A DNA stretch of 64,000 bases. Origin: a virus. The stretch is taken from positions 1 to 64,000 of the IMG/VR virus record IMGVR_UViG_3300032893_000003. One strand, written 5' to 3'. The notes under the pieces are model-generated. The model was not told the origin of the DNA and made no database searches. It worked only from the letters and a program-made list of their open reading frames with translations. Made by a program: the position numbers and the translations under genes. This document shows positions 2,898-51,660 of this stretch, one piece after another (positions within the stretch are counted from its first letter, which is position 1; each line of letters opens with the position of its first letter).

Positions 2898-3056
2898 ATG
2901 GGAAACGTTAAAGCTAAAACCGTGCGAAATTTTGACGGAGGAACGTCGAAGAGTGTGAAAGTAAGCACCCCATCGCTAAATGGTGGTTCAGCAAGCACTC
3001 CGAATACATCTTATGTAGGTGTGGCTGCTGACGGAGGATCTTCAAGTGGCCGATAG
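2898..3056 (+). CDS. Small Ser/Gly-rich ORF ahead of adhesin
   Basis: 52 codons from ATG 2898 to TAG 3054-3056. The product is rich in Ser, Thr, Gly and Asn, like a fibre linker. A GGAGG at 3033-3037 inside it serves as ribosome-binding site for the next gene, which starts at GTG 3046 within this frame. It could be a real small fibre-tip protein or a translational leader. I do not recognise it. Confidence 0.5.
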   Translation: MGNVKAKTVRNFDGGTSKSVKVSTPSLNGGSASTPNTSYVGVAADGGSSSGR

Positions 3057-4245
3057 GATACAGCTAGCTAGAGATACATCGACTGCTTGGGCTTCCAACA
3101 ACCCAATCCTTGCGCAAGGGGAGTGGGGATATGAAACCGACACGGGTAAGGCTAAGATTGGCGACGGCGCAACTGCCTGGACCTCTCTGCCTTACGGTGG
3201 CATTACAGGACCAGCGCAAACAAACGTTCTAGAAAGTTTTGGAGATGGCTCAGATGGGCCCGCCACAATAACGACATCAATCAGCCTATCGCGAGATATG
3301 TATTACAGTAACCTCACGATCAGCGGCGGCGGGTCTATAAACACAGACGGTTGGCGAATATTTGTTTCTGGAACTTTGGATTTAAGTGCCGCAGGTGCCG
3401 CGGCAATTTATAACAATGGCAGTAATGGCGGTAGCACAGCTACTAACGCCGCTGGTGCTGCTGGTGCAGCCAATACTGGTAACTCTATTGGAGGCGGCGG
3501 GAACGGCAGTGCTGGTCACGCTGGCACTACAGGTGGGGTTGGAACTGCTGCTACTGCTGCCGCAACGCAAGCAGCAGCCAATGGCGGGACTGGCGGAGCT
3601 GGTGGTGCGGGCGGTGCAGGGAACGCAGGTGCGGGCGGTGGAGGCACTGCTGGTGGAGCTATCACGACAGCTTGTCCCATTAGACGTTGGGAAACAAATC
3701 TTCTTTATGGAAGCACTCAGCTTGTCGGAGGAGCTGGCGGCTCAGGTGGATCTTCTGGAGCTGCGGGAACTACTGGAGCAGGTGGTGGTGGTGGTGGCGG
3801 TGCTTCTGGTGCTGGCGTTGTCGGCATTTGGGCGAACACCATCAATAGAGGCGCAAGTACAGCTGTAGGCGCTATCCAAGCCAACGGTGGCAATGGTGGT
3901 AACGGTGGTGCTCCATCAGGTGCAACTAACGGTGGCGGTGGTGGCGGTGGCGGTGGCTCTGGTGGTGGTTGGATTTTTCTTATGTACAACACCCTTACTG
4001 GGTCTACAGCAACAAATGCTCTTCAAGCAAATGGTGGCACGGGCGGCACTGGAGGCAATGGTACTACAACTGGTTCAGGGGGAACTGGCGGTTCTGGGGG
4101 TTCTGGCGGACGCATATATACTCTGAAAGTCACGACATCAACGAGTGCTTTTAGCTTTGGATCTGCAGGATCTGCAGGTAGTGCCAACTCAGGTGCTACA
4201 GGTGGAGCAGGCGGCGCTGGAAACGTTTTACAAATGAGTTTATAA
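3046..4245 (+). CDS. Glycine-rich adhesin/tail-fibre tip protein 1
   Basis: GTG 3046 is preferred because GGAGG lies eight bases upstream and the protein then starts MADRIQLARDTSTAW, parallel to the paralogue at 4246. Residues 1-50 (NNPILAQGEWGYETDTGKAKIGDGATAW) match the N-terminal domain common in phage receptor-binding proteins such as the major tropism determinant. From about residue 120 most of the protein is Gly-Gly-x repeats interrupted by short non-repetitive segments, such as one around RRWETNLLYGS. This composition resembles the polyglycine-II sandwich of T-even gp38-type adhesins. It probably binds the host surface at a fibre tip. Confidence 0.75.
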   Translation: MADRIQLARDTSTAWASNNPILAQGEWGYETDTGKAKIGDGATAWTSLPYGGITGPAQTNVLESFGDGSDGPATITTSISLSRDMYYSNLTISGGGSINTDGWRIFVSGTLDLSAAGAAAIYNNGSNGGSTATNAAGAAGAANTGNSIGGGGNGSAGHAGTTGGVGTAATAAATQAAANGGTGGAGGAGGAGNAGAGGGGTAGGAITTACPIRRWETNLLYGSTQLVGGAGGSGGSSGAAGTTGAGGGGGGGASGAGVVGIWANTINRGASTAVGAIQANGGNGGNGGAPSGATNGGGGGGGGGSGGGWIFLMYNTLTGSTATNALQANGGTGGTGGNGTTTGSGGTGGSGGSGGRIYTLKVTTSTSAFSFGSAGSAGSANSGATGGAGGAGNVLQMSL

Positions 4246-5478
4246 ATGGCTGATAAAATGCAATTTCGAAACGATACGGCAGCAAATTGGACTAGCAATA
4301 ATCCGATTCTTGCTGTCGCCGAACCCGGACTTGAATATGACACGGGAATGTTTAAATTTGGTGATGGTATTACTCACTGGAATTCCTTAGCATACAGCGG
4401 TAATACTGGCGCTACTCAAACACTTGCCTATCGTAGCTACGGCGACGGATCAGACGGAAGCCAAACTATTAGCACGCAAATCACTCTCGCTAGTGATATG
4501 CATTACAACAATCTTACGTTAGCGGCAGGCGGGCAAATTATCACCAATGGTTGGCGCATCTTTGTTAAAGGCACGCTCGATTTGCGTAACGCAATTGCTG
4601 GCGCTATCCAAAATAACGGTGGTAATGGCGCTAGTGGAGCAGCATTTTTTGGGGGGACTGGCGGCACGGCACCAGGTGCAAACTCGCTAGGCGGTGGAAG
4701 CGCTGGTGGCACGGGTGGTGTGGGCGGTGTATACGGCACTGGAGCTAATGGCGCTACTAGCTCCAATGTAGCTGTAAATGGCGGTACTAATGGGGCTTCC
4801 GGTATCGGGGGAGCCAATGGTAGCGGTATTTCTGGCGGGACTGGTGGAGCTGCGATTGGATTAGGAAATATGTTTCCAGTTCGTCGTTGGTCCACAAATT
4901 TTTTACTTGGAGCAACTCAAATCGCTTCTGGAAATGGGGCTAGAGGCGCTGGCGGCGGCGGTGGAGACGGCGTCTCCAATTATGGCGGCGGTGGTGGCGG
5001 CGGAGGAGCAGGTGGTGGTATAGTAGGAATCTGGGCAAACACCATTCTTAAAGGATCTTCTACAGCTGCATATTGTATTCAGGCTCTTGGTGGAAATGGC
5101 GGCAGCGGTGGAAATGGCGGACCGGATGGAAACACTGGCGGTGGTGGGGGAGCAGGCGGCGGCGGTGGTGGATGGATTTACATCGCCACAAACAATATCG
5201 CAGGAGCCGAGGCTTTTTCTGCTCTCGCAGTTGATGGCGGGGCTGGTGGTAGTGGCGGCACTGGGACGGGTACTGGATTTGGTGGTAATGGAGGCGGCGG
5301 CGGTACAGCTGGTCTTATTACCATTTTTAACGCCTTGACCGGAGCAGGTTATAATTTTGTAGGACCTAGCTCGACTACACAGTACCCCGATTCTTTAGGA
5401 ACTACAGCTGCAAGCGGAATTGTTGTAGCGACGGGCGGGACTGGCGGAAATGCCCTTAAACTTAGCGTATCGTTATAA
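4246..5478 (+). CDS. Glycine-rich adhesin/tail-fibre tip protein 2 (paralogue)
   Basis: 410 residues starting directly after the previous stop. It has the same architecture as 3046-4245: an N-terminal domain (MADKMQFRNDTAANWTSNN and GMFKFGDGITHWNSL), a linker with SYGDGSDG, then long Gly-rich runs with embedded conserved segments (FPVRRWSTNFLLGATQ, VGIWANTI). The conserved islands are shared with the paralogue while the Gly-rich loops differ. Such divergence is expected if the loops contact receptors. The gene pair looks like a tandem duplication. Confidence 0.75.
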   Translation: MADKMQFRNDTAANWTSNNPILAVAEPGLEYDTGMFKFGDGITHWNSLAYSGNTGATQTLAYRSYGDGSDGSQTISTQITLASDMHYNNLTLAAGGQIITNGWRIFVKGTLDLRNAIAGAIQNNGGNGASGAAFFGGTGGTAPGANSLGGGSAGGTGGVGGVYGTGANGATSSNVAVNGGTNGASGIGGANGSGISGGTGGAAIGLGNMFPVRRWSTNFLLGATQIASGNGARGAGGGGGDGVSNYGGGGGGGGAGGGIVGIWANTILKGSSTAAYCIQALGGNGGSGGNGGPDGNTGGGGGAGGGGGGWIYIATNNIAGAEAFSALAVDGGAGGSGGTGTGTGFGGNGGGGGTAGLITIFNALTGAGYNFVGPSSTTQYPDSLGTTAASGIVVATGGTGGNALKLSVSL

Positions 5479-8198: not shown

Positions 8199-9025
8199 TA
8201 AACCTCACATGGGACGCTTATGCAGATTATGACTGTGATTCCTTCAATATTTATAGGGCTGTGCCTGGGTTTGTTATCAATTTTCCAAACTCCTTGCAAT
8301 CAGGAGATGTGCTTAATTTTGCTGCCACTTCTTCTGTCATACAGTCGATAACTTTCGCAGCTGTAGATATTGACAGTGTCGTTTCAACCTTCAACGACAA
8401 CGCACTGGGCGCTATCGCTACGAAAACGATGGCAGGAACTGCGATCATCATAAGGCTGACTGCTACAACCGATCCGCGGTTGAAGCTTTATCCATGCACG
8501 TTTTTGACCCATCTTGGGGAAGAGCCACGCATCATTGTTCCAGGTCTAGAGTTTAACCTCATCGGAAATGTGCCAACTGCTATCAACACGACAGGCTATA
8601 GCTTTACCGACAACGACGGCACTCAGTATGACGCCTATGACATCACATCAGTTAAAAGCAGCGTTGAGTCACTCCCCTCGCTTACTTTGGTGCCTCAGAT
8701 AGGCACTGACCTTCTCTGCGCCGTTGAAGGCCGGTTTTGTGATAGCCAGAACAAGCCAGTCGTAGGTCTGCTCGTTACGGCTAAGGTCTCAACAAACCCC
8801 CATACCGCGGATGACCGCGGTCTTTATGGCTATCCGGTATCAACTAAAACCGACACTTATGGTCGCTTTTCGCTATCACTGACACGCAACGCTATTTATA
8901 TTCTCTCCATCCCAGACGTTGGGTATAATTGGAGTGTTAAAATCCCCGACCTGCCGGCCACTGACTTTGTTTATCTCGTGCCGACAGTCGAAGATCGCTT
9001 TTCACCGTTTGGAGATCCTCAATAA
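8195..9025 (+). CDS. Virion structural protein with Ig/FN3-like and CarboxypepD-reg-like domains
   Basis: 276 residues. The start (INLTWDAYADYDCDSFNIYRA) reads like a fibronectin-III A strand with the typical W and Y. The C-terminal part (residues about 180-260: EGRFCDSQNKPVVGLLVTA, then TDTYGRFSLSL) resembles carboxypeptidase-regulatory-like beta domains that decorate phage virions. ATGA overlaps join it to its neighbours and place it between fibre and portal genes. A decoration or neck role is inferred. Confidence 0.55.
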   Translation: MINLTWDAYADYDCDSFNIYRAVPGFVINFPNSLQSGDVLNFAATSSVIQSITFAAVDIDSVVSTFNDNALGAIATKTMAGTAIIIRLTATTDPRLKLYPCTFLTHLGEEPRIIVPGLEFNLIGNVPTAINTTGYSFTDNDGTQYDAYDITSVKSSVESLPSLTLVPQIGTDLLCAVEGRFCDSQNKPVVGLLVTAKVSTNPHTADDRGLYGYPVSTKTDTYGRFSLSLTRNAIYILSIPDVGYNWSVKIPDLPATDFVYLVPTVEDRFSPFGDPQ

Positions 9026-10887
9026 TGGACGGTTTTGGACAGGAAGCCCAGGTTGACCCTAGTCAAAGGATGTTTGGAGATCCGAGAAATAAAGTTCGGT
9101 ATCCTTCGCCGTTTTTTGACATCTCTCAGCAATACATTCCGCCGACCATCAAAGAACTCTTTAAGTGGGTTTATTTCTACTCAACGAACAACTCATTTCT
9201 TGGTCCAGCACTGGGAAAAATTGCGCGCTATCCAGTTACAGACGTTATCCTTGAGGATTCAAACACAAAGCTTGTTGAGTTTTGGAAGACCCTTTTAAAT
9301 AACACACTTCAACTTAAGTCTTTCAACATGGAAGCAAACCTCGATCTTGTTACATACGGGAACGGGTTTATCACCATTAATTATCCGTTTACGCGATTTC
9401 TTGAGTGTCAGTCTTGTAAACAAAGAACTCCTTGGAGAATTGCACAAAAGAAAATCGATAACCTGAATTTCAAATTAAAATGTCCGAAATGCGGCAGCAC
9501 CGGGAAAGCCAAGCTTGTCGATATTCCCTATAAATCCTTGGAAAACGTGCGGCTCATTCGCATTAACCCTGAGTTTATCGACATCAAGTATAATGAATCA
9601 TCTGGTCGGCATACGTATCTCTATGCGATTCCGGACAAGCTTCGCCGCATGATCATGGCAGGTGATCCAGACATCTTAGAAGATACGCCTATGATTTATA
9701 TCGAGGCGATCAAACAGCGCCGTAAAATAAAACTCTCAGGTCAGAATCTTTTCCATTTGAAAACTCCAACGCTCGCTGGAAAAGATATGGGCTGGGGTCT
9801 TCCGCGCATCGCCGTTGCTCTTAAGGATCTTTATTATTTCTACACACTTCGCCGTGGACAGGAAGCTGTTATCAACGAGCATATCGTGCCTTTTGATATG
9901 ATCTTCCCGCAAGCCAACGGCAAGATGGATCCTTACGTTCACACTGATCTTTCGAGCTGGCGTAAAGAGATGACAAAGCAGCTTGCAACACGCAGGCGTG
10001 ACCCGAACTACAAGGCTATTTTGCCATTCCCCGTGGGCTATGAGCGCATCGGCGGTGACGGTAAAGCCTTGATGCTAACTCCCGAGCTTGATTTCTTATC
10101 TAAGACCATTGTGGGTGCCTGCGGGATACCGCAGGAGTTTGTTTACGGTGGGACGATGAACTGGACAGGTTCAAGCGTTTCTTTACGAACTCTCGAGAAT
10201 GACTTCTTACATCACCGCACACAGCTTCTTCAGATGAACATCTGGCTCATCGAAAGACTTAGACTTTATTTAGGCATTGCAGCTCCGCGGACTATTCGTT
10301 TCAGCGATTTCAAAATGGCTGACGATATTCAAAAGCTTCAAGTCATGGTCGGCATGGCTTCAAACAATGAATGGCCTTGGGAAGAGATCTGGCAAGAGAT
10401 GGGCCGCGATCCCGAAGTTGTTAAGAAGAAACTCGAAAAAGAAGCCGACTTCAGAGGCAAACTTGCCGAAATTGAAGCTCTGCGTCAAGCTGAAGCTGCC
10501 ACCAAAGCAAGCCAGCTTCAAAAGCGGCTTGATACAAAAGCGGCCATCGAAGATGCGACCCCACCTCCGGAAGACGTCAGTGAAACTGGTCCTGGGGCTA
10601 CGCCGGACAAACAAAAAACTGTCGGCTTCATGGCTAAAAAGCTCATGCAACAAACTCCTGAGATGCGAGCTCAGGCATTAAACCGCATGGAACAAATGGA
10701 TCCGGAGTTCGCCCACGCACTTAAAGATGCACTTCTAGCGCTCGAGCAACAGCAAGCAGGCGCGGAACAGCAAAATGTTCCACGTGGAACATCTCCACAA
10801 CAACCAGCTAAAAAACCACAAAAGCCGATCGTAAACATGAAGCCTATGCCTCAGCAAAAGCCTCCGCGGCGCGCGGGAGGAGTCTAA
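9025..10887 (+). CDS. Portal protein with inserted zinc-ribbon
   Basis: 620 residues. The order of segments fits a phage portal: an N-terminal region (FKWVYFYSTNNSFLGPALGKIA), a middle region with PYKSLENVRLIRINPEFID, LPRIAVALKDLYYFYTLRRG, GACGIPQEFVYGG and WTGSSVSLRTLENDF, then a charged helical, Q/P-rich C-terminus. A Cys4 cluster C128-x2-C131 with C153-x2-C156 looks like a zinc ribbon inserted in the clip/wing region. The portal forms the dodecameric DNA channel at one capsid vertex and docks the terminase. The C-terminal tail may be a maturation or scaffold-binding extension. Confidence 0.8.
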   Translation: MDGFGQEAQVDPSQRMFGDPRNKVRYPSPFFDISQQYIPPTIKELFKWVYFYSTNNSFLGPALGKIARYPVTDVILEDSNTKLVEFWKTLLNNTLQLKSFNMEANLDLVTYGNGFITINYPFTRFLECQSCKQRTPWRIAQKKIDNLNFKLKCPKCGSTGKAKLVDIPYKSLENVRLIRINPEFIDIKYNESSGRHTYLYAIPDKLRRMIMAGDPDILEDTPMIYIEAIKQRRKIKLSGQNLFHLKTPTLAGKDMGWGLPRIAVALKDLYYFYTLRRGQEAVINEHIVPFDMIFPQANGKMDPYVHTDLSSWRKEMTKQLATRRRDPNYKAILPFPVGYERIGGDGKALMLTPELDFLSKTIVGACGIPQEFVYGGTMNWTGSSVSLRTLENDFLHHRTQLLQMNIWLIERLRLYLGIAAPRTIRFSDFKMADDIQKLQVMVGMASNNEWPWEEIWQEMGRDPEVVKKKLEKEADFRGKLAEIEALRQAEAATKASQLQKRLDTKAAIEDATPPPEDVSETGPGATPDKQKTVGFMAKKLMQQTPEMRAQALNRMEQMDPEFAHALKDALLALEQQQAGAEQQNVPRGTSPQQPAKKPQKPIVNMKPMPQQKPPRRAGGV

Positions 10888-11250
10888 ATGGACCCAACTG
10901 ATGATCGAAGTTTAATCGGCGAAGCCATAGAAAAAACCGTCCAAGTCGAACGAAGTCCCATGGTCGAAGGCTTCGTTGCGGGTCTCAAAGCAGCTCTCAT
11001 GGGCGTTCCGATCGGGGCCGGCATCCAAGCACTCCGCGGAAAAGACCCAGTCACAGGAGCCATCGTTGGGGGCGTCGTGCCAGGACTTTTGGCTGGATTA
11101 ACGCGCGCCAGCGAACAAAAGCTTAAAAATTTAAATACCGAGGCCATTATTAGGTACCACACACAAAACATTAAAGAGCGCGAGCCGATGTTCTTCATGC
11201 CGCCTCGGCAGTTTTTAGGACGGTACTTTAGTCGCCGCTTTGGGGGCTAA
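10888..11250 (+). CDS. Small glycine-zipper/hydrophobic virion protein
   Basis: 120 residues, starting one base after the portal stop. A central stretch (about residues 33-75: FVAGLKAALMGVPIGAGIQ and GAIVGGVVPGLLAGL) is Gly/Ala/Val-rich, like paired hairpin membrane-inserting segments. The C-terminus is basic (FLGRYFSRRFGG). It could help DNA cross the host membrane during ejection. This is inferred from composition only. Confidence 0.6.
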   Translation: MDPTDDRSLIGEAIEKTVQVERSPMVEGFVAGLKAALMGVPIGAGIQALRGKDPVTGAIVGGVVPGLLAGLTRASEQKLKNLNTEAIIRYHTQNIKEREPMFFMPPRQFLGRYFSRRFGG

Positions 11251-11251
11251 A

Positions 11252-11464
11252 ATGCTTATCGAAAAAGCGAAGATCGAAAGCCGGATTTTTAATTTGGATA
11301 ATGAGAGCGATCAATCAGAGTATAATGCCTTAATAGATAATCCTGGCGTACGAATACTCGATAAGCGATGGATTGACCATAATGAAGTTCACGTCGAAGG
11401 ACGTGAACGGACTGAAGTTAAAGAACCTCATCTTTATGTAGAGTGGGAAGAATGTTCACTGTAG
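11252..11464 (+). CDS. Small hypothetical protein, 70 aa
   Basis: ATG 11252 with GGGGG upstream is chosen over an upstream TTG. The product is acidic and charged (ESDQSEYNALIDNPGVRILDK) and ends WEECSL. No family is recognised. It overlaps the next gene, which starts at 11452. Confidence 0.55.
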   Translation: MLIEKAKIESRIFNLDNESDQSEYNALIDNPGVRILDKRWIDHNEVHVEGRERTEVKEPHLYVEWEECSL

Positions 11465-13234: not shown

Positions 13235-16200
13235 ATGCGCACATTTTCAGGCTCTGACCAATTTAAAGAACTCCAGAACGTTATTGTTGAATCCTACTCA
13301 AAACTTTTCCCGGCCGAGAGTAACGGGCACCGCTTGGAGCTCAGTAAAATCTGGCTCGATGACACAAGCGTTGATCCAAAAGATTACGCCGATCAGAAAA
13401 AAGTAAAGCTCGCCGGCAATACTTGGGGCGCTCCGCTTTACGCTTCGCTCGTGCTCAAAGATCCGGATGGAAAAGTTCTTGATAAGATGGATAAGGTGAG
13501 ACTTGCGACCATTCCGCGACTTACTCCACGCGGCTCATACATCGTAAAGGGTAACGAATATCAGGTTGCAAATCAGATGATTAGAAAGCCTGGAGCCTAT
13601 GTTGTAAAAAGCCAGAAGGGTGACCAGTTTAAAGGAATGCTTGCGATCGGTGGCGATCGCACACAAAACTTTGAAGTCCATTTCGATCCCGCAAATAACA
13701 AATATAAACTTCAAGTAAAGCAAGCCTCGATCCCCTTATATCCTCTTTTAAAATCCTTGGGCGCTTCCGATAAAGAGCTCATCGATGCGTGGGGTGAAAA
13801 GATTTTCCTGGCAAATCGACAAGACAGACCAGGTGACTACACGAAGCTTGCCGACAAGCTGACGGGACAAAAAACCGATAACAAGCAGACTGCGATTGAG
13901 TATATACAAGCATATACAAAGACAACTAAGATCGATCCCAACATCACGAAACTTACATTGGGGCATCCTTATGATAATCTCAGCCGTGGACTTTTGCTTG
14001 ATACCTCGAAAAAAATCTTGGGGACATATCAAGGTAAGATTGAGCCCGACGATCCCGAAAACTTGCTCTTTAAAGAAATACGATCCGTCGAGGATATGTT
14101 ACAAGATCGACTTGGAAGTAAAAAGGAACAAGAGGGTCTTAAAAGAATGCTGAGCCGTCATCTCGGCAAAAGAAATTCAATTAAGCAGCTTATCGATTTT
14201 AAAAAACTTACGTCTCCCGTAGAAACTTTTTTCACGCTCGATAATAGGACGTCCACGCCTGAACAATATAACCCCATCAACATGGTGGCTGAGCAAAATA
14301 AGCTTACTGTGCACGGGACAGGCGGTATTCAATCAGCCCACGCTGTGAGCGCTAGTTTGCGCGAGGTCCATCCGTCACATATGGGATTTGTTGACCCCAT
14401 GCACACACCAGAAAGCGAAAAAACGGGTACAGTTCTCCATCTTGCCAGTGCCACCGTTAAAGATGGCCGCAATGTGCGTACATTCGTACGCAATGTGCGT
14501 ACAGGGAAGATGGAACTTCTCACCCCTCAGGAACTTTATTTTAAGACGGTTGCTTTTCCTGATGAAATGGAAAACGGTAAGTTTAAAAATCCAAGTTCTG
14601 TCCGTGCCCAATCGCAAGGGAAGATGGATGTCTTTTCGTCAGCCAAAGTCGACTATGTTCTGCCGCATCCTACAGCGCTCTTTAGCCATTCGACAAATCT
14701 CGTCCCATTCCTGAAAAACGATCAGGGCAATCGCACGATGATGGCAGCTAAAATGTTGGGTCAGGCTATTCCTCTCGTGAACCGAGAAGCCCCCAATGTT
14801 CAAACGATGTCACCATCAGGCAGAACATTCCACGAAGAATTTGGCGAAAGGTTTTCGCTTAAAGCGCCCGCCGAAGGCACCGTTACGGCTGTCACTCCTG
14901 ACTACATTAAAATCGGAAACGAGAAGATAACGCTTTATAATAATTTTCCTCTCAATCAAAAAACAAGTGTCCATCACCAGCCCCTTGTCAAAGTGGGAGA
15001 TAAAGTTCGAAAAGGGCAGCTCATAGCAGATAGCAATTACACCCAAGGTGGAACCCTTGCAGTCGGTAAGAATCTAAATGTCGCTTATTTAGCTTATCCT
15101 GGCTACACTTTCGAAGATGGTATTGTCATCACCGAAAGTGCCGCGAAAAAGTTAGCTGCTGAACAGACTTATAAACACGCCTTTAAACTCGAAGCTGGAA
15201 AAAAGGAAACAAATCTTCGACGGTTTTTAAGTTATTATCCGAACACCATGACCAAAGATATGATGGGCTTGTATGATCCAGAAGGCGTTATAAAAAAGGG
15301 CAGCGTTGTTAAGCCAGGTCAAATCCTGATTGCGGGTCTTAACTATGCCGCCCATTCGCCAGAGAACATGACCCTCAGACGCTTAAGCCGCACGCTTACA
15401 ATCCCGTGGTCAAATGCAGCCGTGAAATATACGGGCGAATTTGAAGGTGTTGTCACTGATGTTGTAAAGCGCGGAGATGAAATCAACGTCTTCGTTAAGG
15501 CTATAGAACCTGCTAGAGAGTCGGATAAGCTAGCCGGCGTCCATGGAAATAAAGGTGTTATCACGAAAGTCATTCCAGATAGCGAAGCTCCCCGGACTAA
15601 GGATGGTCGCATCCCTGATATCCTACTTAATCCACATGGTATCATCGGTCGGATTAATATGGGGCAGCTTTACGAATCAGCAGCTGGAAAGATTGCTCAA
15701 AAGACTGGAAAACCTTACGTTGTTACGAACTTTGATGAGCACGAGACAAATAAAAAAGTCGAAGCTGATTTAAAAAAGCACGGGCTTTCCGATACGGAAG
15801 AAATGTTCACAGCAGACGGCAAGTCGCTCGGGCACGTGAACTTTGGAAGCCCTTATATCCTAAGACTAGCAAAGACTGGTAAAACCGGATTCTCAGCGCG
15901 TATGCCTGGTCAAGGATACGATGTGAATCGACAACCTGTTAAAGGTGGCGAAGAGGGCTCTAAAGCTCTTGACCAACTAACATTCTTCTCCATGCTTTCT
16001 CACGGCGCTAAGAAGAACTTACTCGATGCTCACGTAAAATCTGAGCGAAATGACGAGTATTGGCATGCTATTGAAATGGGTAAGATTCCCCCCACTCCAC
16101 ACACGACTTTTGCATTTGATAAGTTTATGAGTCTATTGCGAGGTGCTGGGATCAATGCGGACAAGCGCGGACCTGAGTTCGTGCTCGCCCCTATGACTGA

Positions 16201-19200
16201 TGAAACGACAAAGAAATTAAGCAAAGGAAAGATCAGCGAATTTAATTTTCTTTACGGTAAGAATTTAAAAGAAATCAAAGGCGGGATGTTTGATACTCAA
16301 ATCACAGGCGGCATGAATGGAACAAACTATGCCCATATCGAACTGCCGGAGCGTATGCCAAATCCCGTGTTTGAAAACGCGATTAAGTCCTTAGCTAACA
16401 TCAAGCAGCCTCAGTATGACGCGCTGGTTGCAGGGACTATGCATCTCGGAAAAGATGGAAGGCTATCTCAGACCCCATCTCCTGGTTCAAAGACAGGCGG
16501 TCCGGCAATTGCGGAGTTACTAAAAAACGTAAATCCGGAAACAGAGATCCCGCGGTTAAAATTGCTTTTAAAGAAAACCACTAATGAATCGGACATAAAT
16601 AAAATCAACAAAAAGATTCGTTATCTGGCAGCTTTAAGAGACATGGGCACTTCGGCTGATGAAGCCTATACGCGCAAACTTGTTCCAGTAGTTCCTCCGC
16701 AATATCGGCCAATCCAAGAGATTCAAAATCGCGGGCTTGTGGTCTCGCCACCCAACTACTTATATCAAAGTTTAGGAATACTATCCGAGGCTCACGATCA
16801 TCCGGTTATGAAGTTCCTTGATGATTCTGAAAAGACACAGTTGCGCGCCGAAACCTACAAGGCTTCGCGGGCATTAGCAGGACTTGAAGATGTCTACACC
16901 CGCGGCAAAAGTCAGCCCACTAGGGGATTCATTTCCCAGATTACCAACGCCACGCCGAAACAAGGCTTCTTCCTTGATAAGCTCATCACAAAGAAACAAG
17001 ATATCGCCGGCCGCGGAGTTATCGTAAATGGACCTGATTTACACATGGATGAGATCGGCATACCCGAGAAAATGGCAAAAACCATCTTCAGACCATTCAC
17101 CGTACGAGAGTTTACAACTGCCGGCTACAAACCAGATATGGCAAGAAAAGAAATAGAAGCAGGGACCCCGCTTGCAAAGCGTATGCTTGAAGCTGCAATG
17201 TCTAAGCGCACAGTTCTCATGAATCGCGCTCCTTCGCTCCACAAGTTTTCCGTCATGGCTTTTAAACCACGGCTCACAGAGGGTCTTGCTGTCCGCGTTC
17301 CGCCTCTTGTGTTTAAAGGTTACAATGCCGACGTTGACGGCGATACGGTCACTCTACACGTGCCCGTAAGTGAAGAAGCCATTCGCGAATCAACGAAGAT
17401 GTTTCCGTCAAATAACTTATGGAAACCTGGCACGGGCGAGCTCATGACAACTCCTTCACAAGAAGCCGCCATTGGACTTTATTTCTTGTCTCAGAGCGAA
17501 AAGGGCCGCGGTGTGATTAATAACGCCTTACCGCCAAAGTATCACGTAACAAGCACCTTATCAGCTAGGGCCGCAAAAGAGCTCTATAACAAAATCGCTA
17601 AAGAAGACCCTGTCAAATTCCCGAACATCGTCCACAATCTGAAACTCTTAGGCGATAAGTATGCTTATGAAAGTGGATTTACTTCCACCATCAGCGACAC
17701 TATTGCCGATACTAAAACGCGAGATGCCCTCTTTAAAAAAGCTGATATCGAGGCAGATAAGCTCAGAAAAGCGATGAAGCCTGGTCTTGAGCGCGACAAC
17801 AAAATCGCAACGCTTTACGAAAAGGCAGCGCAAGACTCTTATCAAAACATCAAAGAACAGCTCAAGAAAAAGGACTCAAGCTTTTACCACATGGTTGAAT
17901 CTGGCGCGCGTGGGAAAAACGAACAGCTCATGCAAATGGTCTCAGCTCCAGGGATCGTGATGGATGCAAAGAACCACAAAGTTCCAGTACCTCTTAAGAA
18001 GTCCTATGCCGAGGGAGTCTCGACTTCCGATTACTTCATGTCAGCCTATGGTGTTCGTAAAGGGATGATGGACAGATCCATCCAAACAGAAAAACCTGGC
18101 GCTATGAACAAGGACATCATGGCGGCTGCAGCTGACCACATTGTTCACGAAGTTGATTGCGGCTCTAAAAAAGGTGTGACGCTACCGCTATCAAGTTCGG
18201 ATGTGCAAGACCGAGTTTTGGCGCATGACCAGCACGGACTTGCGCGCAATACACCCGTCACTCCACAAGTGGTTGCCGCTCTCACAAAAGCCGGAATTAA
18301 AGACGTGACAGTCAGAACCCCTTTGCGTTGTAATTCCTCTAAGGGAGTTTGTGCCCACTGCTTTGGTAAAGATGAATTTGGTCAGCTTCCGCAAGTGGGA
18401 GACAACGTCGGAGCCAAATCGGGCCAGACAATGACAGAGCCTGTAACGCAATTCGTCATGAAAACTTTCCACACAGGCGGCGTATCGACAGGCGCACCCA
18501 CAGCCAAAGGCTTTGAACGCGTCAGCCAGCTTCTCAATATGCCTAGCTACGTGTCTGGTGAAGCAGCCCTAGCCCGCCACAAAGGCCGCGTGACAAAGAT
18601 CTCTAAAACGCCAGCCGGAGGTTATGATATTCAAGTTGAGGGAACTCCCCACATCGCACGCCCCGGGCTCACACCTCAAGTTAAAGTTGGGGATGTCGTC
18701 GAGGCTGGAGACAAGCTCACAGACGGTGTTATTCGACCCCAGGAGCTTTTAAAACACAAAGGAATGCTCGCTGCCCAGAATTACATCGTCGATGAGCTTA
18801 AGAAAACCTACGCCCAACAGGGCGTTCCCATGCAGCGAAAAGTCTTTGAAACCGTAGTTAGAGCCGCCACAAACAACACTCGAGTTGTCGAAGCTCCTAA
18901 GCACACAGACTTTTTACCAGGGGATATTATCCCCTATACCACAGCGCTTCATTACAATGAGACCAGGAACGTGACAGTTCCGACAGACTCGGCTGCCGGG
19001 TATTTCTTAAAAGAGCCTGTTGGCAAGCTACCACAGTTTCACGAAGTGACCCCAAAAGATGTACAATACCTAAAAGATATGGGCCATAAGCAGCTCTCTG
19101 TCTTAAAAGATCCGCTTATCCATGCGCCCATTATCAAAGGTATAACCGAAGTTCCAGCCTTCCGTAAAGACTGGATGGCGCAGCTTGGATATCGCTACTT

Positions 19201-19318
19201 AAAACGCACACTCACTGAGGGTGCGGCGCAAGCTTGGAAATCGAATGTCGAAGGAGCACATCCGGTGCCAGCATTCGCTTACGGAGCAGGTTTTGGTAAA
19301 AAGAAGGAGCACTACTAA
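13235..19318 (+). CDS. Single-chain (fused beta-beta') multisubunit-type RNA polymerase
   Basis: 2027 residues. Beta motifs come first: RLTPRGSYIVKGNEYQVANQ (about 95-115), REVHPSHMGFVDPMHTPES (about 375-395), GNRTMMAAKMLGQAIPL (about 497), KNLNVAYLAYPGYTFEDGI (about 610), LAGVHGNKGVITKVIPD (about 765) and a C-terminal GGEEGSKALDQLTFFSML region (about 900). Beta-prime motifs follow: VPVVPPQYRPI (about 1152), IAGRGVIVNGPDL (about 1253), LMNRAPSLHKFSVMAF (about 1327), catalytic NADVDGD (D1366, D1368, D1370), the bridge-helix region YFMSAYGVRKGMMD, four zinc cysteines (DCGS, RCNSSKGVCAHC) and trigger-loop TEPVTQFVMKTFHTGG. The N-terminal beta-prime zinc ribbon is absent. It is about 700 residues shorter than E. 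coli beta plus beta-prime. No alpha, omega or sigma gene is visible. It probably transcribes phage genes; whether it is packaged is unknown. Confidence 0.95.
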   Translation: MRTFSGSDQFKELQNVIVESYSKLFPAESNGHRLELSKIWLDDTSVDPKDYADQKKVKLAGNTWGAPLYASLVLKDPDGKVLDKMDKVRLATIPRLTPRGSYIVKGNEYQVANQMIRKPGAYVVKSQKGDQFKGMLAIGGDRTQNFEVHFDPANNKYKLQVKQASIPLYPLLKSLGASDKELIDAWGEKIFLANRQDRPGDYTKLADKLTGQKTDNKQTAIEYIQAYTKTTKIDPNITKLTLGHPYDNLSRGLLLDTSKKILGTYQGKIEPDDPENLLFKEIRSVEDMLQDRLGSKKEQEGLKRMLSRHLGKRNSIKQLIDFKKLTSPVETFFTLDNRTSTPEQYNPINMVAEQNKLTVHGTGGIQSAHAVSASLREVHPSHMGFVDPMHTPESEKTGTVLHLASATVKDGRNVRTFVRNVRTGKMELLTPQELYFKTVAFPDEMENGKFKNPSSVRAQSQGKMDVFSSAKVDYVLPHPTALFSHSTNLVPFLKNDQGNRTMMAAKMLGQAIPLVNREAPNVQTMSPSGRTFHEEFGERFSLKAPAEGTVTAVTPDYIKIGNEKITLYNNFPLNQKTSVHHQPLVKVGDKVRKGQLIADSNYTQGGTLAVGKNLNVAYLAYPGYTFEDGIVITESAAKKLAAEQTYKHAFKLEAGKKETNLRRFLSYYPNTMTKDMMGLYDPEGVIKKGSVVKPGQILIAGLNYAAHSPENMTLRRLSRTLTIPWSNAAVKYTGEFEGVVTDVVKRGDEINVFVKAIEPARESDKLAGVHGNKGVITKVIPDSEAPRTKDGRIPDILLNPHGIIGRINMGQLYESAAGKIAQKTGKPYVVTNFDEHETNKKVEADLKKHGLSDTEEMFTADGKSLGHVNFGSPYILRLAKTGKTGFSARMPGQGYDVNRQPVKGGEEGSKALDQLTFFSMLSHGAKKNLLDAHVKSERNDEYWHAIEMGKIPPTPHTTFAFDKFMSLLRGAGINADKRGPEFVLAPMTDETTKKLSKGKISEFNFLYGKNLKEIKGGMFDTQITGGMNGTNYAHIELPERMPNPVFENAIKSLANIKQPQYDALVAGTMHLGKDGRLSQTPSPGSKTGGPAIAELLKNVNPETEIPRLKLLLKKTTNESDINKINKKIRYLAALRDMGTSADEAYTRKLVPVVPPQYRPIQEIQNRGLVVSPPNYLYQSLGILSEAHDHPVMKFLDDSEKTQLRAETYKASRALAGLEDVYTRGKSQPTRGFISQITNATPKQGFFLDKLITKKQDIAGRGVIVNGPDLHMDEIGIPEKMAKTIFRPFTVREFTTAGYKPDMARKEIEAGTPLAKRMLEAAMSKRTVLMNRAPSLHKFSVMAFKPRLTEGLAVRVPPLVFKGYNADVDGDTVTLHVPVSEEAIRESTKMFPSNNLWKPGTGELMTTPSQEAAIGLYFLSQSEKGRGVINNALPPKYHVTSTLSARAAKELYNKIAKEDPVKFPNIVHNLKLLGDKYAYESGFTSTISDTIADTKTRDALFKKADIEADKLRKAMKPGLERDNKIATLYEKAAQDSYQNIKEQLKKKDSSFYHMVESGARGKNEQLMQMVSAPGIVMDAKNHKVPVPLKKSYAEGVSTSDYFMSAYGVRKGMMDRSIQTEKPGAMNKDIMAAAADHIVHEVDCGSKKGVTLPLSSSDVQDRVLAHDQHGLARNTPVTPQVVAALTKAGIKDVTVRTPLRCNSSKGVCAHCFGKDEFGQLPQVGDNVGAKSGQTMTEPVTQFVMKTFHTGGVSTGAPTAKGFERVSQLLNMPSYVSGEAALARHKGRVTKISKTPAGGYDIQVEGTPHIARPGLTPQVKVGDVVEAGDKLTDGVIRPQELLKHKGMLAAQNYIVDELKKTYAQQGVPMQRKVFETVVRAATNNTRVVEAPKHTDFLPGDIIPYTTALHYNETRNVTVPTDSAAGYFLKEPVGKLPQFHEVTPKDVQYLKDMGHKQLSVLKDPLIHAPIIKGITEVPAFRKDWMAQLGYRYLKRTLTEGAAQAWKSNVEGAHPVPAFAYGAGFGKKKEHY

Positions 19319-19506
19319 TGTTTACCAAAGGGTTTGAAAAAACAGCGATCCGCCTCAGTAGAATCGGCAGTAAAGCCGGCCGTCATCTCGCGCGCCACCG
19401 GAAAGATTATCTCATGGGAGCTGCAGCCGTGGGCTCGTTAGGCACCGCTTACGGAGCCAATAAAAGTAAGGAACTTGAAAAAGACCAGGCCTCAATTAGT
19501 GCCTAA
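19318..19506 (+). CDS. Capsid-targeted-type small basic protein (MFTKGFEKTA)
   Basis: 62 residues, ATG overlapping the polymerase stop (TAATG). After the shared peptide comes an Arg/His-rich segment (RIGSKAGRHLARHRKDY) and a Gly/Ala stretch (LMGAAAVGSLGTAYGA). Translational coupling to the polymerase gene indicates co-expression. Predicted head-internal. Confidence 0.65.
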   Translation: MFTKGFEKTAIRLSRIGSKAGRHLARHRKDYLMGAAAVGSLGTAYGANKSKELEKDQASISA

Positions 19507-50736: not shown

Positions 50737-51660
50737 ATGTTTTCAGAAGAAGCAGCAACATTTAACAACCTGTTTATCGAGCGGATGGACACGCAAGATG
50801 GACAGACGAAGACTGCTCAGGCAGGTCAAGCGTTTGTACGCTCGTTCCTGCGTGAACATTCTGTTGCGCGCAAGATTTTACCACCCGAGTCAGTTACGCG
50901 CGCAGATCTGACTCGCTCTACCCGCCATGACACGCTGATCAAAATCGTAGATTTTGAGCATCCGTCGACTGCGGCTGCGATTAACTTTCGCTCGGCTGGC
51001 CGTGAGCGCTACCTCCAAGGTAAGCGCTATGCTGTGCCCTTCTTCAAAGTAGAGAGCGATCTCTTCACGAAGAATGAAGCTGAGTTGCTCGCTTACGAGT
51101 ACCCGATTACTAAAGTAATCGAAGAAAACTCGATCAAGGACATCATGTTCGTAGAGGACTCTGTGTTCTTGTCAGCATCTGCTGGTGCTGTATTCAATAG
51201 CGGTAAACAAATCGCTTCTGCCGATACGCAAGTATCGCGCGCCAACTTGAACAAACTGTTCAAGATGATCGATGTGGATAAACTCCAGTCGATGATTTGT
51301 TTGATGACCAACGTCGATTTCGACGATTGGCAAACCCAACAGGCCACGGATGTCGGTTCGCCGATGGCATCTGCGATGACCGTTGACGGCTACAAACACG
51401 ACCATATTATGCGTCGTCGTTTGATCGTCACGAACAAAGTGGACCTGCTGACCCCCGGGACTCTGTATGCCTACACGGATCCTCAGTTCTTGGGTAACTT
51501 CTTCATCTTGAACGATGTTAAGTTCTGGATTAAGAAGGAAGCTGATAAGGTTTTCTGGAAGACCTGGGAATATGTTGGCATGGGTATCGCCAACCTGCAC
51601 TCTGTTTCTCAGATCACTTTGCAGGTTCCGCAAATTATCCCTGGCGGCGGAAGCTTCTAA
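50737..51660 (+). CDS. Major capsid protein (HK97-fold) precursor
   Basis: 307 residues after GGAGGAGG. The first 27 residues end in QTKTA, then Q28 AGQAFVRSFL. Cleavage after A27 would remove an N-terminal pro-peptide as in T4 gp23, at the same K-x-A-type site seen in the scaffold proteins. The body has features of phage capsid proteins: HDTLIKIVDFEHPSTAAAIN, GKRYAVPFFKVESDLFTKNE, DVKFWIKKEADKVFWKTWEY and a Gly-rich end. Strong position evidence: after the decoration gene and with its own terminator downstream. Confidence 0.8.
   Translation: MFSEEAATFNNLFIERMDTQDGQTKTAQAGQAFVRSFLREHSVARKILPPESVTRADLTRSTRHDTLIKIVDFEHPSTAAAINFRSAGRERYLQGKRYAVPFFKVESDLFTKNEAELLAYEYPITKVIEENSIKDIMFVEDSVFLSASAGAVFNSGKQIASADTQVSRANLNKLFKMIDVDKLQSMICLMTNVDFDDWQTQQATDVGSPMASAMTVDGYKHDHIMRRRLIVTNKVDLLTPGTLYAYTDPQFLGNFFILNDVKFWIKKEADKVFWKTWEYVGMGIANLHSVSQITLQVPQIIPGGGSF

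Follow-up and report, generated by a model that had tools for sequence, protein, structure and literature searches.

A single-chain beta-beta' RNA polymerase gene in phage DNA and its proposed packaging with a phage sigma factor

The fused polymerase gene and its family

The window analysed here is the whole stretch of 64,000 nucleotides at positions 1 to 64,000 of the IMG/VR virus record IMGVR_UViG_3300032893_000003, which is 175 kb long. At 13235-19318 it contains a gene that encodes the beta and beta' subunits of a bacterial-type RNA polymerase (RNAP) as one polypeptide. The gene and its parts are listed below, all on the + strand.

13235-19318, +: single-chain beta-beta' RNA polymerase gene, 2027 amino acids (aa), internal stops 0
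13235-16162, +: beta module, residues ~1-976, with the fork/Rif region, the flap, the beta double-psi barrel (K765/K773) and the beta C-terminal clamp
16160-16198, +: beta/beta' junction, residues ~976-988, unbroken in 85/85 phage relatives
16199-19315, +: beta' module, residues ~989-2027, N-terminal zinc-binding domain deleted
17324-17344, +: catalytic motif NADVDGD, residues 1364-1370
18158-18361, +: second zinc site, Cys1642/1699/1706/1709, from the RpoC alignment
18458-18481, +: trigger-loop core MKTFHTGG, residues 1742-1749, with H1746 corresponding to E. coli H936

An earlier note on this DNA had described an uninterrupted 2027-codon gene with beta motifs followed by beta' motifs. This description is borne out by the absence of internal stops and by the Pfam domain order, Rpb2 domains 3 and 6 and then Rpb1 domains 2, 4 and 5. 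The matches of the open reading frame (ORF) to PDB sequences are bacterial beta' chains with E values down to 1e-106, and its PHROG matches are bacterial-type subunits. Identity is 26.0% to Salmonella RpoB over 960 beta positions and 26.9% to RpoC over 977 beta' positions. As the first beta' motif lies only ~12 residues past the last beta motif (residues 976-988), the two subunits are fused almost end to end. The observation of a fused beta-beta' RNA polymerase gene in phage DNA is confirmed, and it is the only polymerase match in the whole record. In a search for T7-type polymerases, the controls themselves were silent.

The Mg-binding aspartates are D1366/D1368/D1370 in the NADxDGD motif, K765/K773 are the equivalents of beta K1065/K1073, and the bridge-helix motif is SAYGVRKG. 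A replacement of the trigger-loop histidine by tyrosine was considered and discarded, as the RpoC alignment places H1746 at that position. The catalytic, trigger-loop and zinc-site residues named earlier are borne out by the aspartates, H1746 and the second zinc site. The N-terminal beta' zinc site (C70/72/85/88) is deleted in the alignment with Salmonella RpoC. The earlier figure of about 700 missing residues is correct against the combined length of E. coli beta and beta', where it partly reflects inserts of that lineage (the enterobacterial stretches beta 936-1047 and beta' 1014-1152 have no counterpart in the phage chain), but shrinks to ~370 against shorter bacterial pairs of ~2400 aa. 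The flap and clamp-helix sequence is kept, as read from the alignments. In the Rif pocket, residues E343, E353, K356, T358 and H360 replace D516, H526, R529, S531 and L533, and rifampicin resistance of the phage polymerase is therefore predicted.

The beta and beta' halves were each modelled with AlphaFold (AF2) from viral-contig relatives, with a mean predicted local distance difference test score (pLDDT) of 87.7 for beta and 80.1 for beta'. When the models were compared with the PDB by Foldseek, bacterial-type beta chains filled the top list for the beta half (TMq 0.74-0.78) and bacterial-type beta' chains that for the beta' half (TMq up to 0.80). Of the checks proposed in the earlier note, profile searches gave the domain order above, and structure prediction, here of the half chains, matched bacterial beta and beta' with TMq of ~0.7-0.8.

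A search with an alignment as the query returned 207 viral stretches encoding relatives, of which 80 were kept, and full-length relatives at ~60% identity occur in four contigs. Across 85 phage loci, made up of viral contigs and the isolates Arash, D69 and D181, a single frame runs through the beta/beta' junction in every case. A search with another family member added 44 loci with single frames of 1086-1825 aa. Split members do exist, Arash, D69 and many contigs among them, with a cut at ~1429-1440, past the active-site barrel, and one subgroup has an additional cut at ~1069-1083. Homologues split by a missed stop and start at about residues 940-980, which the earlier note had named as what would count against a fusion, did not appear. 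The three Mg aspartates are kept in 76-79 of 80 family sequences and both beta lysines in 83 of 83; the trigger-loop motif is kept as well. Among 83 phage sequences, D387 of a DPxxTPES signature never varies; the bacterial references have C at the corresponding position. With a Rhizobium phage RNAP as the query, no relatives were found in viral contigs. A scan of genome contigs returned bacterial rpoBC loci only and no pointer to a host.

Several family genes carry in-frame inserts. The RNAP ORFs of L004/L005 (8001-15665), L032, L033 and L052 contain intein-like inserts of ~450-510 aa, several of them with LAGLIDADG-type motifs, and the L004 insert lies directly 3' of the catalytic DxDxD motif. 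Inserts of ~350 aa with an intein-like TPNHR motif are found in L072 (7914-15128) and L092 (5745-11345) and share one beta site, within TPES, past the equivalent of window residue 394. In Vibrio phage D181 (L016, 2968-8482), a homing endonuclease gene accompanied by small ORFs interrupts the chain of beta and the N-terminal part of beta' (beta-beta'N) at profile position ~517, where the close relative D69 is unbroken. The RNAP of L073 (7905-14274) is broken within beta, at profile position ~650, into two overlapping frames, which is either a frameshift error or a genuine split.

A tree of 73 sequences, including six bacterial references, was built with quick supports from the Shimodaira-Hasegawa-like approximate likelihood ratio test (SH-aLRT); L077, with a branch length of 10, was excluded. 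The phage family stands apart from the six bacterial references (SH-aLRT 100). Split members form one clade (SH-aLRT 100), and the remaining branches, the deepest included, are held by single-chain members. Because parsimony needs one change between the single-chain state (28 members) and the split state (38 members), and because single-chain members occupy the deepest branches, the one-chain state is most simply read as ancestral in the phage family, with the two-gene form derived. The phages GN1, Carin-5 and RHph_TM30 (L013, L014, L015), which encode beta and beta' as separate genes, fall outside the family in the beta' region (SH-aLRT 99) and carry Gp23-type capsid proteins. Therefore such phage RNAPs occur in at least two lineages.

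Gene neighbourhood, sigma factor and virion evidence

The polymerase gene had been placed in a virion gene block, and the portal, terminase and head-protein candidate genes found in the window agree with this placement. The neighbouring features are as follows.

9025-10887, +: portal protein gene, 5' of the polymerase, 27% identity to the Arash gp204 portal, E 2e-78
10888-11250, +: small conserved ORF in the portal-polymerase interval, 46-50% identical to the ORFs that occupy this position in L002-L005
12056-12391, +: second small conserved ORF in the portal-polymerase interval, from sequence comparison with relatives
19318-19506, +: 62-aa ORF beginning MFTKGFEKTA, its start sharing one base with the polymerase stop codon
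31145-32869, +: terminase large subunit, phrog_675 E 4e-68, PF05876
45943-47784, +: homologous to gp222, a virion protein of Arash; weak match to a head-maturation protease
50737-51660, +: major head protein candidate, phrog_2522 E 8e-12, homologue in D69

Of the 78 loci with enough sequence, 66 have a portal gene 5' of the RNAP gene and in the same orientation. About ten ORFs of the window, at 11443, 19318, 21820, 21953, 49437, 53818, 58368 and elsewhere, start with a shared MF..GFEKTA peptide, and such starts are also present in L002, L004, L017 and L018. The capsid-targeting-like peptides reported earlier are thus real on neighbouring short ORFs, one of them directly at 19318, and the peptide is possibly a sorting tag. 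The polymerase chain itself does not have it, so the peptide is no evidence for packaging of the polymerase. At the other side of the portal gene, 3019-4245 and 4246-5478 are adjacent receptor-binding or tail-fibre-like genes; PF18454, the N-terminal domain of Mtd, matches the latter (E 8e-10).

Neither the Pfam sigma models for region 2 and region 4 nor the second sigma of D69, used as a query, gave a match in the record. The Arash sigma factor Gp10, however, identified an orthologue of 293 aa (E 1e-14), whose gene occupies 148556-149437 of the record. Matches to Pfam Sigma70_r3 (5.8e-6) and to a PHROG sigma (2.7e-7) back this identification. The gene lies outside the 64,000-nucleotide window. 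The earlier statement that no sigma gene is seen is accordingly true of the window but not of the record. A Gp10-type profile, built from two sequences, matches 15/15 other large family contigs as well as Arash and D69, and 0/6 among T4, AR9, phiKZ, SPO1, Carin-5 and RHph_TM30. The phage sigma may thus pair with the phage core polymerase. The earlier note had seen no alpha gene in the window, and none (PF01000) was found in the record, which is possibly incomplete; the same search detected alpha in 13 of 14 controls.

Virion data are available for homologues. In tandem mass spectrometry of Arash particles, Gp206 (beta-beta'N) gave 3516 spectra, the most of all proteins, compared with 1333 for the major capsid protein, 1210 for Gp216 (the C-terminal part of beta', beta'C) and 467 for the sigma factor Gp10 (PMC10585845). 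We calculated 2.3 spectra per residue for Gp206, 2.0 for Gp216, 2.0 for Gp10 and 1.5 for the portal. The near-equal values of the first three are compatible with a 1:1:1 stoichiometric complex, although such counts are no more than semi-quantitative. The Arash virion paper (PMC10585845) makes no mention of Gp196, the second sigma of this phage. Particles of the more distant phage YerA41 likewise have a sigma factor and RNAP subunits associated with them (PMC7354516).

Proposed function and competing explanations

Taken together, the domain order and active site, the predicted folds, the unbroken junction, the tree, the portal synteny, the sigma gene, the lack of an alpha match and the virion data from Arash and YerA41 make it likely that the gene encodes the single-chain, alpha-free core of a virion-packaged, sigma-dependent polymerase for early transcription. 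In this proposal, one polypeptide would provide the whole bacterial-type catalytic core without alpha or omega partners or the N-terminal beta' zinc finger. The chain and its own sigma would be packaged in the phage head and delivered together with the phage DNA, where the sigma would steer the chain to phage early promoters and infection could start without host RNA polymerase. Packaging in the present phage, injection, pairing with the sigma, activity as a single chain, early timing and promoter choice are all inferred. Where the earlier note had left the choice between a virion-packaged polymerase and a late transcription enzyme, the Arash virions and the portal synteny indicate that it is probably packaged, and a late enzyme appears less likely. 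Several points weigh against this proposal. The Arash virion list comprises 116 proteins, replication enzymes among them, and the Arash authors allow for carry-over of abundant enzymes (PMC10585845). Spectral counts from virions are semi-quantitative, and virion presence is known from the split homologue of Arash, while for the present phage it is predicted. The pairing of sigma and RNAP is drawn from co-occurrence, homology and the flap and clamp-helix sequence, and the beta and beta' halves were folded separately, so that the models describe each half and not a closed claw.

A polymerase that is synthesized in the infected cell for middle or late genes and does not belong to the virion, the virion homologues being carry-over, would fit a gene in a late-type block, the carry-over raised by the Arash authors (PMC10585845) and the separate non-virion RNAPs (nvRNAPs) of some phages. 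We consider it unlikely, since total spectra of Arash Gp206 exceed those of the major capsid protein, Gp216 and Gp10 are present at about equal spectra per residue with Gp196 unmentioned, the portal-RNAP synteny is conserved, and the record holds one polymerase match only. Many large phages encode sigmas for the host RNAP (PMC13282480) and group-1 jumbo phage RNAPs lack a sigma (PMC7824862), so the phage sigma could instead redirect the host enzyme, with the phage core using another specificity factor or none. The occurrence of this sigma type with the RNAP family and not in the controls, its packaging with RNAP in Arash and the retained flap and clamp-helix sequence make such a division of labour improbable. 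If the chain had lost its activity and served as a structural head protein of polymerase origin, this would account for the great abundance of the homologue in Arash virions, but the retention of the Mg aspartates, the beta lysines and the trigger-loop motif makes such a role very unlikely.

Two further explanations concern the fusion itself. Fused rpoBC genes are found in Helicobacter and Wolbachia and share the gross architecture of the phage gene, which could then be a recent capture of a bacterial fused gene. We give this little credence, as the phage clade is separate from the bacterial references (SH-aLRT 100; Helicobacter and Wolbachia were not among them) and its losses and signatures, such as DPxxTPES, are common to the phage family. 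An assembly join, or a missed stop and start merging separate rpoB and rpoC genes, might be suspected in a metagenome-derived record when the bacterial references have separate genes. The 85 independent relatives continuous across the junction, with the isolates D69, D181 and Arash among them, and the 44 further loci with long single frames refute such an artefact, and its probability is negligible.

For the family as a whole, we lean somewhat towards the view that a widespread lineage packages a host-independent holoenzyme made of one full-size beta-beta' chain and its own sigma, in which one chain is ancestral and the two- and three-piece forms come from later cuts inside beta', so that multi-gene phage polymerases can arise by breaking a fused chain and not from subunits that had stayed separate. 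This would be a concrete case, within one phage family, of a fusion that preceded the splits, and it bears on the origin of many-piece phage polymerases. If active alone, the chain would be a natural one-chain core of cellular type that works with a simple sigma and dispenses with an assembly platform, and it could help to find out what alpha, omega and separate subunits are needed for. A further prediction of the proposal is that early transcription of cultured phages, Arash and D69 among them, is independent of the host and resistant to rifampicin.

Comparison with known polymerases

The closest described relatives are Arash Gp206/Gp216 and the polymerases of Vibrio phages D69, D148 and D181, which belong to the same family with ~29-32% identity over the full length. 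They share with the present phage the portal-RNAP order, the fused beta-beta'N and the Gp10-type sigma. Unlike the present single chain, their beta' is divided between two genes, with the cut past the active site. These proteins are annotated as plain beta or beta' subunits or as hypothetical, and the fusion went unremarked; searches of the open-access literature found no description of the Arash/D69-type family as fused.

Bacterial RpoB and RpoC, at 26-27% identity, share fold and motifs with the phage enzyme, which differs in its single chain, the missing N-terminal zinc domain of beta', the absence of an alpha gene, a phage-specific sigma and a separate clade. The RNAPs of mReC, the multi-subunit RNAP-encoding Caudovirales (Weinheimer and Aylward 2020, PMC7481178), are, according to the passages of that paper searched, alignable with cellular beta and beta', deep-branching and apart from bacteria. 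The same holds here: both parts of the present chain are detectable by cellular models, and its clade is apart from the six bacterial references. Those passages state that all major capsid proteins found in mReC match PF07068 (PMC7481178), and they do not mention a fusion of the mReC enzymes, a sigma or packaging. PF07068 is absent from the present record and 14 family records, and the model matches in T4, Carin-5, GN1 and RHph_TM30. The terminase model PF03237, likewise tested as an mReC marker, has no match in the present record, which has PF05876 instead, and is above the cut-off in 4 family records. Filing the present phage under mReC was tried and set aside, as this capsid marker is missing and contig names could not be matched; the family may overlap with the 97 mReC contigs.

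The phiKZ/AR9-type RNAPs consist of four, five or more polypeptides and have no sequence-detectable sigma homologue (PMC13282480, PMC7824862). Their virion RNAP (vRNAP) is a packaged two-barrel enzyme for early genes without alpha or omega, which resembles the function favoured here, and, like the split family members, they have a beta' divided past the catalytic barrel (PMC7824862). In contrast to a core distributed over several beta and beta' polypeptides without a sigma, the present phage has one chain and a sigma gene, and phiKZ/AR9-type matches to the chain are short and weak. Both barrels are combined in one chain, as here, in the RNAPs of crAss-like phages, YonO and P23-45 (PMC7481178, PMC10770324), and in P23-45 the vRNAP is packaged as a fusion with the tape measure protein (PMC10770324). 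While those enzymes have diverged strongly and show few cellular features, the present chain keeps an architecture of bacterial beta and beta' that is visible to ordinary hidden Markov models. Two-barrel polymerases carried by phages, packaged ones and fused ones were thus each known before, and what is new is a full-size, sigma-linked fused family. This family is large and little described, and its beta and beta' are always joined at the junction.

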